Shown here in pieces: positions 5,971 through 30,659 of a stretch of DNA of 64,000 nucleotides. The position numbers and the translations under genes are program-made. The notes under the pieces were generated by a model. It did not search any database and was not told the DNA's origin. It saw only the letters and a list, made by a program, of their open reading frames with translations. Every line of letters starts with the position of its first letter. Position 1 is the stretch's first letter. Where the stretch lies: assembly GCA_903934325.1 (NCBI GenBank), contig CAIZNH010000039.1, forward strand, positions 1 through 64,000, given 5' to 3'. Source of the stretch: an uncultured Alphaproteobacteria bacterium. Lineage in GTDB: Bacteria; Pseudomonadota; Alphaproteobacteria; Sphingomonadales; Sphingomonadaceae.

Positions 5971-6046
<76 letters not shown>

Positions 6047-27858: not shown

Positions 27859-28619
27859 GTTCCCGCGAGCGATCGCCGCCCGGTCAGGGTGACGATCTCG
27901 AAGCTCTCGGAAACCTTGCCATCCGCGTCGGCCTGCGCGGAAAAGGCGGCGCGGGCGCGGGCGAGGGACGCTTTTCCTAACGGCGCGGCGGGTTTGGCGA
28001 GGGCATTGCCGAGGCCCTGATCGCGCAGGTCGGCAATCAGCCGCTCGAGTGAGGAATAACGCACCGTCAGGTGGTGCGTGTCGACCACAGGGTCTTTCCA
28101 GCCTGCGCGCTGGAGCAGTGCGGGCGCGGCGCGCGGATCGACCAAGGGGTGGATGCGCGCTGCCGGACGATCAGGCTCGGCGGCGAACAACGTGGCGCGC
28201 AGGGCAGGCAGGCTTTGGCCGCCAATGAAATGGGCGATCACCAGCCCGCCAGGCGCGAGCGCATTGCGCGTGTGGATCAGCGCGCCGGGCAGATCATTGA
28301 CCGCATCGAGCAGGCCCGCAACGACGATGAGATCGAGGCCTGTTATAGGCCATGGTTGCTCGTGATCGAGGGTTTCCGGTGTTTCGACCTCGGCCCCTGT
28401 GGCGGCAAGTTGGCGGGCAAGATCGCCGGTCCAGTCGCCAAGCACCAGCGCACGGCCCGGTGCATGGCGCAGGAAGGCGAGCCGTTCGAGAGTATCCTCG
28501 ATCCAGTCGTCGGCAAGAAAGCGCGCGGCATCTGCTTGCCCGAGCCGGCTGCACGCACGGGCAAAGCGCGCCTCGCGGCGGCGCGCTGCAAAGATCGTCG
28601 GGATAGCCGGGGTGTTCAT
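27855..28619 (-). CDS. SAM-dependent methyltransferase-like protein (BioC/NDUFAF5-like)
   Basis: A 254-aa class I methyltransferase-like protein. Its N-terminus, IFAARRREARFARACSRLG, followed by DWIEDTLERLAFLRHAPGRA, resembles the alphaproteobacterial relatives of NDUFAF5 and BioC. The SAM-binding strand is weak: ALVLGDWTGDLARQL, with GDW where a DxGxGxG loop is usual. DLIVVAGLLDAVNDLPGAL and LAPGGLVIAHFIGG are typical later motifs. The degenerate glycine loop makes the substrate and even methyl transfer uncertain. It is divergent from comF across 57 bp and convergent with ppdK. Confidence 0.7.
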   Translation of the reverse strand: MNTPAIPTIFAARRREARFARACSRLGQADAARFLADDWIEDTLERLAFLRHAPGRALVLGDWTGDLARQLAATGAEVETPETLDHEQPWPITGLDLIVVAGLLDAVNDLPGALIHTRNALAPGGLVIAHFIGGQSLPALRATLFAAEPDRPAARIHPLVDPRAAPALLQRAGWKDPVVDTHHLTVRYSSLERLIADLRDQGLGNALAKPAAPLGKASLARARAAFSAQADADGKVSESFEIVTLTGRRSLAGT

Positions 28620-28676
28620 CCGCGACGCCCTGCCGCGCTTGCCAGCCGAGTGCAAGCCATGCGACACTCGCGCGCT

Positions 28677-29393
28677 ATGGCAGTGGTCGCACACTTGAGC
28701 CGCGGCATGAAGCCGCTGGTGGATCTTGTCTATCCGCCGCGCTGTCCGCTGTGCGGCTCGGCGCTGGCAGATCAGGGCGGGCTTTGCGCCGATTGCTGGA
28801 GCGAGATCGACATTCCCGGCGAAGGCGGCTGCGATGCGCTGGCTTCATGGCCCGATCTTGGCCAGAGCGTTCCTGTCCACGCGGCGACGTTCTACAATGA
28901 TGCCTCGCGCAGGCTGGTGCTGGATTTCAAGCATGGTCGCAGGATTGCGCTGGCAGGCCTGCTGGCGCGCCTGATCGCGGCGCGGCTTCCTGCTGCGGCG
29001 AGCGGCGCACAGCCTTTGCTCGTTCCCGTGCCGCTGCATCGCTGGCGCCTGTGGCATCGCGGTTTCAATCAGGCAGCGCTGCTGGCGGGCGAGTTGGCGA
29101 AACTTGGCAGGGGTGAGGCGCTGGTGGACGGGCTGATCCGGAGGAAACGCACGCCGAGCCTCGGCGGGCTGGGGCGCGCGGCGCGCGAGCGGGCGCTGGC
29201 AGGCGCGATCGTGATCAATCCGCGCAAGGCGGGTCTGATTGCGGGCCGTGATGTAGTGCTGGTCGATGATGTCTTCACCAGCGGTGCGACCTCTCACGCC
29301 TGCCTCGCTGCAATCGCCGCTGCGGGTGCGCGCAGCCTGAGCGTAGCGAGCTTTGCGCGGGTGGATGATGCTGTGGCGGGGCGGGGCGGCTGA
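28677..29393 (+). CDS. comF: ComF family phosphoribosyltransferase-like protein
   Basis: A 238-aa ComF/GntX-type protein, linked in other bacteria to DNA uptake or oxidised DNA use. It has an N-terminal zinc ribbon CPLCGSALADQGGLCADCW and, near the C-terminus, the PRPP-binding motif VVLVDDVFTSGAT. In between lie VPVPLHRWRLWHRGFNQAALLA and RTPSLGGLGRAARERALAGA, both diagnostic for ComF. The start may be ATG 28677 or ATG 28707; neither has a clear ribosome site. A 10-bp hairpin begins 10 bp after the stop but has its T-tract on the minus-strand side. Confidence 0.88.
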   Translation: MAVVAHLSRGMKPLVDLVYPPRCPLCGSALADQGGLCADCWSEIDIPGEGGCDALASWPDLGQSVPVHAATFYNDASRRLVLDFKHGRRIALAGLLARLIAARLPAAASGAQPLLVPVPLHRWRLWHRGFNQAALLAGELAKLGRGEALVDGLIRRKRTPSLGGLGRAARERALAGAIVINPRKAGLIAGRDVVLVDDVFTSGATSHACLAAIAAAGARSLSVASFARVDDAVAGRGG

Positions 29394-29429
29394 AAAACGA
29401 AACGCCCGGAGCCTTGTGAGCTCCGGGCG
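29392..29429 (-). terminator. Strong intrinsic terminator (minus strand)
   Basis: CGCCCGGAGC (29403-29412) and GCTCCGGGCG (29420-29429) form a perfect 10-bp stem with a 7-base loop. On the minus strand it is followed by TTTCGTTTTTC. No annotated protein gene on the minus strand ends here, so it must end a non-coding transcript. On the plus strand it could at most act as a weak comF terminator. Confidence 0.8.
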
Positions 29430-29640
29430 CCGCGTGACGAAACGGTGTGGATCCGCTCTTTCGAGCCAGAATGGCCACCCCCTAGCTTGGCCATTCGGGA
29501 TCCTGTCCCTTATCGTTCAACCGGTCGCACTGGCACCCCGCTGCCAGTCTGCGGTCCGGTCACCCCCTGAACCTGGCATCAGATGATGCCGGTATTCGGT
29601 GGAGAACCGTCTTGCGACAATCCCTGAGCGCCTTGTTCCA
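29392..29640 (-). ncRNA. Candidate structured small RNA upstream of hisI
   Basis: The comF-hisI gap is packed with stable inverted repeats. From right to left these are 29571-29593 (GGCATCA/TGATGCC core), 29520-29560 (ACTGGCA/TGCCAGT core extended by ACCGG/CCGGT to about 16 bp), and 29449-29503 (GAATGGCCA/TGGCCATTC core nested in GGATCC/GGATCC). The series ends in a perfect 10-bp terminator stem with T-tract on the minus strand (29392-29429). No protein frame fits. All this indicates a transcript of roughly 200-250 nt on the minus strand. The 5' end is unknown. I could not match it to 6S, tmRNA, RNase P RNA or SRP RNA from remembered motifs. Minus-strand loops are G-rich (AGGGGG, GCGGGG). Confidence 0.5.
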
Positions 29641-29766
29641 TCCCGCCTGTTCATTCGGAAGGGCTAACCTTGCCGGTCGACATTTTTTGCAACCTGCTGT
29701 TGTGATCGTGCAACAATCCGCGCATGAGCAGCCCGTTTTCGGCATGATGACGAGCGGACAATTCAG

Positions 29767-30162
29767 ATGGCTGATCCCCAATTGACTACCGAGGAGCAGG
29801 AAAATGGCTCTGTCTTTGCGCCCAAATTTGATGCTTCGGGATTGCTGACGGCAGTTGTTGTCGACTCGCACACGGGCGGCGTGCTGGTGGTCGCGCATAT
29901 GAACCGCGAAGCGCTCGATGCGACGCTGGAGGGCGGGCGGGTGCATTTCTGGTCCCGTTCGCGTGGGAAGCTTTGGCTGAAAGGAGAGACCTCGGGGCAC
30001 TTTCTCGATGTGGCAGAGGTTCTGGTCGATTGCGATCAGGATGCGCTGGTGATTCGGGCAACGCCTACCGGTCCGACCTGCCATACGGGCGCGCAGAGTT
30101 GCTTTTATCGCAGGCTCGAGGTCGGCGAGGGCGCGCGTGCTCTCGTAAAGGTCAAGACTTGA
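29767..30162 (+). CDS. hisI: Phosphoribosyl-AMP cyclohydrolase
   Basis: A 131-aa enzyme opening the adenine ring of phosphoribosyl-AMP, the third step of histidine synthesis. Diagnostic motifs are AHMNREALDATLEGGRVHFWSR, GKLWLKGETSGH and the metal-binding stretch VDCDQDALVIRATPTGPTCHTG. It is the stand-alone HisI type without a HisE domain. Residues 1-20 are a short acidic lead. The stop codon overlaps the presumed operator of the next gene (30159-30174). It is not in a his operon here. Confidence 0.95.
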   Translation: MADPQLTTEEQENGSVFAPKFDASGLLTAVVVDSHTGGVLVVAHMNREALDATLEGGRVHFWSRSRGKLWLKGETSGHFLDVAEVLVDCDQDALVIRATPTGPTCHTGAQSCFYRRLEVGEGARALVKVKT

Positions 30163-30174
30163 CGCTCACGTAAA
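30159..30174. promoter_or_regulatory. MerR/LiuR-type operator upstream of the MerR gene
   Basis: TTGACG-CTCA-CGTAAA is an imperfect inverted repeat matching the general layout of LiuR operators (TTxACGT-N-ACGTxAA) known from Proteobacteria. It lies 21 bp before the MerR start and overlaps the hisI stop. Autoregulation is the likely use. No -10/-35 could be placed with confidence. Confidence 0.5.
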
Positions 30175-30194
30175 GGGAAGGTATCTGGTGCGGC

Positions 30195-30659
30195 ATGGCT
30201 ACCGCACCTGCACCTTCCGCGTCCGCGCATAACCCCGAGGCAGAACCACGTCGCATTGGCGCGCATCTCGACCGGCCTGATATCCACGCGCGCGAACAGT
30301 TCACCATCTCGGATCTCACCAGCGAATTCGGCTGCACTGCCCGTGCGCTGCGCTTCTACGAGGACGAGGGGCTGATCAGTCCGGCCCGCGTCGGGCTGAC
30401 CCGCGTCTATTCCAAGCGCGACCGTGCGCGGCTCGCATGGATCATGCGCGCCAAGAACGTGGGCTTCAGCCTCACCGAAATCCGCGAAATGATCGACCTA
30501 TACGATCTGGACGATGGCCGCGTCGAACAGCGCCGCGTCACGGTCGAGAAGTGCCGTGCGCACATCGCCAAGCTCAAGGCCCAGCGTGACGACATCGACA
30601 GTTCGATCAACGAACTCACCGATTTTGTCGCCGAGATCGAAAAGCTCGATCTGCGCTGA
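30195..30659 (+). CDS. MerR-family regulator (LiuR-like)
   Basis: A 154-aa MerR protein. After a 35-residue non-conserved N-terminus comes the winged helix FTISDLTSEFGCTARALRFYE with DEGLISPARVG and the conserved RVYSKRDRARLAWI. A dimerisation coiled coil follows (about 105-150, VEQRRVTVEKCRAHIAKLKA). There are no cysteines placed for metal sensing, in agreement with the LiuR/SoxR-unlike group that controls branched-chain amino acid and fatty acid breakdown. The acyl-CoA dehydrogenase gene 52 bp downstream on the same strand is the probable target. Exact ligand (an acyl-CoA) is inference. Confidence 0.88.
   Translation: MATAPAPSASAHNPEAEPRRIGAHLDRPDIHAREQFTISDLTSEFGCTARALRFYEDEGLISPARVGLTRVYSKRDRARLAWIMRAKNVGFSLTEIREMIDLYDLDDGRVEQRRVTVEKCRAHIAKLKAQRDDIDSSINELTDFVAEIEKLDLR

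Follow-up and report, generated by a model that had tools for sequence, protein, structure and literature searches.

Locus and gene neighbourhood

The window, by which the whole 64,000-nucleotide stretch of DNA analysed here is meant, carries between a comF-like gene and hisI a structured RNA that is confirmed as real and is very probably the product of a separate noncoding gene on the minus strand. The comF-like gene, assigned by an NCBIfam match with an E-value of 2.1e-22 that lies below the curated cut-off, is on the plus strand and convergent with the RNA gene, its stop codon abutting the RNA terminator. The hisI gene, coding for phosphoribosyl-AMP cyclohydrolase and assigned above the NCBIfam cut-off, starts at 29767 and is divergent from the RNA, the predicted 5′ end of which is located about 110 nt away from the hisI start. 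The intergenic region is divided as follows.

29393 to 29657, minus strand: body of the noncoding RNA gene, drawn from conservation, covariation, the terminator and coordinates, with a predicted 5′ end and a 3′ end given by the terminator
29664 to 29716: promoter-like DNA
remainder up to hisI (29767): spacer

The RNA is about 260 nt long, and its 5′ end would be at about 29657 if the −10 box is GGTTAG or at about 29675 if the A-tract takes this role. A reading made earlier from the sequence alone (hereafter the sequence-only reading) had extended the structured RNA over 29392–29760, of which only the part from 29393 to about 29657 stands, the rest being the promoter-like DNA and the spacer. 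We infer that the gene is transcribed.

The comF and hisI genes lie on both sides of the RNA in 102 of the 103 loci checked, with L058 as the only exception, a count that refers to the loci from the first searches and includes some genomes twice. Loci of this kind are called type I here. A gene for a MerR-like regulator (30195–30659) adjoins hisI and is followed by an acyl-CoA dehydrogenase-like gene; almost every type I locus checked has this pair next to the RNA, L051 having neither gene.

Search for known RNA families

At gathering thresholds, the search of the window with 4227 Rfam models gave only a tRNA, namely tRNA-Lys with the anticodon CTT at 5971–6046 on the minus strand. When the RNA region was searched at E-values up to 10, two matches were obtained, both far under the gathering scores, and the loci of 15 relatives gave no Rfam match. 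ARAGORN detected neither a tRNA nor a tmRNA at the RNA locus, and the only match to 6S RNA (RF00013) in the genome lies on another contig (C20:10203-10376). A known housekeeping RNA was rejected on these grounds. A word search of the openly licensed literature, including excerpts of PMC12559287, PMC5869019, PMC6970203 and PMC6563040, found no description of the RNA in the text covered, though a transcriptome study may have picked it up and given it no name. The region had been proposed to hold an undescribed structured RNA, to be checked with Rfam and covariance models, and this was borne out, as no known family was matched and covariation in relatives is strong (see below). The RNA is a new family of a known kind, the stand-alone structured bacterial RNA.

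Predicted fold, covariation and transcribed strand

Two alignments of type I loci were used. Alignment A1 includes 32 of the 34 loci from the genus (L024 and L028 were omitted, and L031 duplicates L001), and alignment A4 includes 62 loci chosen across the family, with duplicates omitted along with the loci that diverge most (L039, L050, L057 and L058); counts of 62 out of 62 given for A4 describe this chosen set. The predicted fold consists of six hairpins, terminator included, and a multibranch closing stem, with the following elements listed from the 5′ end.

29601 to 29624, minus strand: hairpin P1, the weakest helix, with 68% of cells paired in the register given
29572 to 29592, minus strand: hairpin P2, with double changes at 5 of 5 pairs
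29563 to 29573, minus strand: conserved unpaired G-rich linker GGUUCAGGGGG between P2 and P3
29520 to 29560, minus strand: hairpin P3, with covariation
29513 to 29516, minus strand: 5′ strand (ACGA) of the closing stem of the P4 domain, pairing with UCGU at 29437–29440
29498 to 29503, minus strand: 5′ strand (GGAUCC) of the inner P4 stem, pairing with GGAUCC at 29449–29454, with double changes at 6 of 6 pairs in the 62 loci
29469 to 29496, minus strand: hairpin P4a with an AGGGGG loop, with double changes at 8 of 8 pairs and a G-run in the loop in 62 of 62 loci
29455 to 29467, minus strand: hairpin P4b, with double changes at 4 of 4 pairs
29433 to 29442, minus strand: conserved UUUCGUCACG ahead of the terminator, TCGTCACG being present in 62 of 62 A4 rows and in 16 of 17 rows of the type II alignment A6 (see below)
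29393 to 29431, minus strand: intrinsic terminator of 13 pairs (29431–29401) with a T-rich tail, helix 9 in the covariation tests

The closing stem ACGA/UCGU is almost invariant, being therefore conserved but without covariation support. The minus-strand fold of 29395–29640 has a z-score of −4.64 and the plus-strand fold one of −5.41, each being better than 200 of 200 shuffles, so that folding energy alone cannot pick the strand. The strong stem-loops noticed earlier are present; their number had been given as three, but the count is that of the fold above. The perfect minus-strand terminator of the sequence-only reading was found as described, and its remark that there is no protein gene to serve agrees with the RNA having a terminator of its own.

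The covariation measures are clearly above those of shuffled alignments. For A1 and its 61-pair structure, 94.6% of cells are standard pairs against 89.4% in shuffles, double-sided changes occur at 31 pairs against 11.7, and the covariation score is 0.278 against 0.169; on none of these measures did any of 500 shuffles come up to the alignment itself, and values for slid registers were far lower. For A4, which is fitted to the model and so leans towards structure, 95.4% of cells are paired, there are 412 double-change cells against 106.6 in shuffles, and the score is 0.412 against 0.186, again with none of 500 shuffles attaining the observed values and slid registers far lower. Compensatory changes on the transcribed strand, as expected of a stand-alone bacterial noncoding RNA gene, are thus present. 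With P1 excluded from the counts, G·U cells far exceed A·C cells (208 against 3 in A1 and 382 against 37 in A4), which means that the transcribed strand is the minus one. A protein-coding reading was rejected, since none of the frames stays open over the full length in more than 11 of the 32 A1 rows.

The assignment of the strand decides how the repeated motifs are to be read. The three plus-strand CACCCC motifs reported previously are located exactly at 29476, 29534 and 29561, while dinucleotide shuffles contain 0.20 on average and none of 2000 reached three. All three had been placed in loops, which is right for 29476 (P4a) and 29534 (P3), with the UG overlapping the stem edge, but not for 29561, which is in the unpaired P2–P3 linker. 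The pair types put the RNA on the minus strand and with it the G-rich form of the loops, and they reject a plus-strand RNA with anti-Shine-Dalgarno loops, the likeness suggested earlier for the C-rich motifs, which needs the plus strand. The idea of a repeated loop motif holds in part: a run of at least four G is present in the P4a loop in 62 of 62 A4 loci and the linker has GGGG or GGGA in 61 of 62, but the P3 loop has its run in only 30 of 62. Two of the three repeated motifs, those of P4a and of the linker, look older than the one in the P3 loop.

Three unpaired sites are conserved, namely the linker GGUUCAGGGGG, the P4a loop AGGGGG and, before the terminator, UCGUCACG, which is missing from some of the weaker comF/hisI loci (L131 and L150 among them). 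G-runs are in slight excess (3.24 per RNA against 2.88 in shuffled sequences), and C-runs are depleted (0.19 against 0.90).

Upstream element and promoter-like region

The following elements are located upstream of the RNA.

29698 to 29716, minus strand: upstream element TTGTTGCACGATCACAACA of 19 bp, which reads TTTGTTGCACGATAACCACAG or near it in many other genera
29681 to 29692, minus strand: A-tract element TTGCAAAAAATG, CAAAATC in most other genera
29664 to 29669, minus strand: possible weak −10 box GGTTAG, CTTTG or CTATG in relatives

The pattern TTGTTGCANNNNNACMACA has exactly one exact match in nine of ten genomes, in each case directly upstream of the RNA; the tenth genome (G093) gave no match to it, and the reversed control gave none. 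The spacing between the element and the A-tract is 25–27 nt in 84 of 88 distinct loci, a count that allowed 24–28 nt and with which a wider window agrees for nearly all loci. The distance from the hisI start, as estimated from protein alignments, ranges from −10 to 98 nt across loci. No match to the sigma-70 consensus promoter was found within 28600–30300, and a classical sigma-70 promoter was rejected for this interval. The conserved element with its nearly fixed spacing is promoter-like and suggests that the gene may be controlled by a dedicated regulator.

Distribution across the family and a second genomic form

Of the 61 genus genomes searched at the DNA level, 55, among them the window's own, matched the RNA region at E ≤ 0.001, several of these matches being partial and as short as about 40 bases. 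The model R1, built from the genus, matched 127 of 298 family genomes, and in a sample of the order it matched 73 of 246 genomes, all 73 from the same family; a second R1 match of G281 (L160) looks like a chance terminator. The model R2, built from the 62 loci, matched 175 of 298 family genomes, belonging to 67 of 96 genera, with one match listed per genome. Class-wide, it matched five of 367 genomes, four of them in the family and one, G549, outside (E 5.3e-4), where the match, by our reading, covers the end of a coding region and a terminator and is taken as a chance one.

The weaker R2 matches revealed that the RNA has a second genomic form, named type II here. Neighbouring genes were read at nine loci (L127, L128, L130, L132, L133, L136, L137, L140 and L149), five of which are divergent from proS, three from lolC/lolE, and one is located upstream of thrS; NCBIfam supplied the names of one proS, two lolCE and one thrS (a fragment, below cut-off), and our reading of the translations those of the rest. 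Similar type II matches are L134, L135, L138, L141–L146 and L148. Alignment A6 includes 17 of the 19 type II candidates, L130 and L144 being omitted. In the 19 loci listed, the upstream region has TGTTGC or TGTGGC, followed by CACA after about eight bases (after five in L133), and in the 15 loci measured TGACA follows 55–56 nt downstream of this motif. The counterparts of the conserved unpaired sites are GGUUCRGGGAG, AAGGGGG and UCGUCACG, and UCGUC can also pair with GACGA immediately before it. Types I and II have in common a similar upstream element, the G-rich sites and the end formed by UCGUCACG and the terminator.

The model R3, built from the 17 type II loci, matched 242 of 298 family genomes, from 83 of 96 genera, while the genomes matched by either R2 or R3 number 252 of 298; E-values of the R models are rough, and a number of R3 matches cover the 3′ part only. 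R3 matched the RNA of the window at E 5.6e-10 over the full model, which has only 14 pairs in its structure, so the homology between types I and II rests largely on sequence. Two matches, and once three, are listed for R3 in about 21 genomes including the window's own (G000), where the second one is the terminator only (model positions 158–188). In G205 the best R3 match (C1:185433-185488) is the 3′ end only and lies at a different place from that of R2; a terminator module that is shared, or else an incomplete additional copy, may account for it. In a further search, R3 matched five of 91 genomes: the two in the family were G000 and G150, and the other three, among 89 outside it, were weak (E 2.7e-4 to 6.1e-4), covered only the 3′ part of the model and are taken as chance.

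A pattern search of named genomes returned at least 120 stretches. Since many of them came from unrelated bacteria, the pattern lacks specificity by itself. When 33 of the 80 stretches listed were scored with R2 and R3, 26 of 28 sphingomonad loci matched and none of the five others did. Among the matches listed, R2 gave the better scores in Qipengyuania, Erythrobacter, Porphyrobacter, Citromicrobium, Parapontixanthobacter and Novosphingobium, and R3 in Sphingomonas species such as S. mali, S. dokdonensis and S. azotifigens.

Possible function

The minus-strand gene is, in our judgement, very probably that of a trans-acting noncoding RNA. Retention at either of two kinds of chromosomal site implies action in trans and not on a neighbour, which makes this the most likely mode for the RNA. 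The suggestion of a trans-acting regulator made in the sequence-only reading remains the natural one for this reason, but the tests for specific partners gave negative, weak or marginal results.

As to mechanism, we tentatively favour the capture of C/U-rich RNA by G-rich sites. The conserved upstream element would start a transcript of about 260 nt, which would fold into P1–P3 and the multibranch P4/P4a/P4b domain and end at the intrinsic terminator. The folded body may then offer its G-rich, Shine-Dalgarno-like sites to C/U-rich single-stranded RNA, the captured partner being either the seed of another small RNA or C-rich mRNA leaders. A precedent is CrfA, a sponge RNA of Caulobacter crescentus, which captures aR8 small RNAs via a G/A-rich stem-loop complementary to the aR8 core 5′-UUUCCUCCCU-3′, the latter being C/U-rich and single-stranded (PMC12559287).

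Pairing with this core, scored without accessibility, had a mean of −11.11 for type I RNAs against −11.84 for shuffled sequences, 17 of 62 being below their own shuffled mean, and in a separate run the RNA of the window was not below its own. For type II the values were −11.92 against −11.04, with 12 of 17 below, which is a weak effect. For a CrfA-type sponge of aR8 RNAs the outcome is negative in type I, with pairing no better than in shuffled sequences, and weak in type II. Complementarity to the 16S tail was marginal for type I, where 3–5 of 100 permuted queries were as good, and 9–63 of 100 were as good for type II. CsrA was not found in any of 15 genomes at E ≤ 0.001, while three of 14 control genomes gave a match.

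Only slightly less likely is a protein-binding scaffold or a housekeeping ribonucleoprotein RNA, in which a protein, and not RNA, would be bound by UCGUCACG, the P4 junction and the G-rich sites. Such a role would fit the retention of a large multibranch fold in most members of the family, and the closing stem, nearly invariant though covariation would permit change, suggests sequence recognition; against this, the RNA is not 6S RNA, nor, with no CsrA match in 15 of 15 genomes, a CsrB/RsmZ-type decoy. We regard as rather unlikely the wider proposal of a lineage-defining housekeeping RNA of the Sphingomonadaceae under its own regulator, with a G-rich, Shine-Dalgarno-like platform through which it would influence translation or else the pool of C-rich regulatory RNAs, a role that would have no counterpart in known RNA families.

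That the RNA belongs to a known family which the Rfam model fails to recognise in this lineage, or is a small RNA already published, is improbable. Differential RNA sequencing does exist for Sphingopyxis granuli TFA (PMC6563040), but the Rfam searches of the region and of the 15 relatives gave nothing beyond the two matches far below gathering scores, 6S RNA lies elsewhere and ARAGORN found no tRNA or tmRNA.

A cis element of a neighbour, namely a hisI leader, a comF 3′ untranslated region or an antisense RNA, is very unlikely. The proximity of the predicted 5′ end to hisI (about 110 nt) and of the terminator to the comF stop codon would suit it, but the RNA strand is opposite to both genes, the distance to hisI varies while the spacing within the promoter–RNA unit is nearly fixed, and the homologue stands beside proS, lolC/lolE or thrS in nine loci of other genera; a cis leader of hisI was rejected for these reasons. 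Finally, a conserved protein-binding or replication-related DNA element merely resembling an RNA is hardly credible despite the high conservation of the 19-bp upstream DNA, since the 208 G·U against 3 A·C cells and the compensatory stem changes require a transcript, and it is on one strand that the terminator shows conservation.

An RNA of such complexity, retained in most members of a large bacterial family and absent from every RNA family searched, is likely to have a general role. The trans-acting RNA proposed here, with two kinds of chromosomal site and a similar upstream element, also makes a clean system of one gene, one 19-bp element and defined G-rich sites.

Comparison with known systems

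6S RNA has the shape of one long hairpin; the RNA described here is of broadly similar size to it (RF00013) but has a multibranch fold. The decoys of CsrA of the CsrB/RsmZ type carry repeated GG-containing unpaired sites, whereas the sites in the form described here are GGGGG and not GGA, and a CsrA decoy was rejected because none of the 15 genomes searched gave a CsrA match. Membership in the aR8 small RNAs was likewise rejected, the exact core UUUCCUCCCU being present in none of 62 type I and none of 17 type II rows.

In the excerpts of the sources covered, the closest systems in kind are trans-acting small RNAs, namely aR8, MmgR and SisA-D together with SuhB, which belong to the same class, SuhB being from a sphingomonad (PMC12559287, PMC6563040). 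SuhB of Sphingopyxis granuli is a trans-acting RNA of 61 nt (PMC6563040), compared with about 260 nt and G-rich sites here, where the C-rich motifs are on the opposite strand. CrfA differs in its complementarity to the aR8 core, for which the type I RNA was no better than shuffled sequences, but it is of the same class, with a G/A-rich pairing site in CrfA and G-rich unpaired sites in the RNA of the Sphingomonadaceae (PMC12559287).
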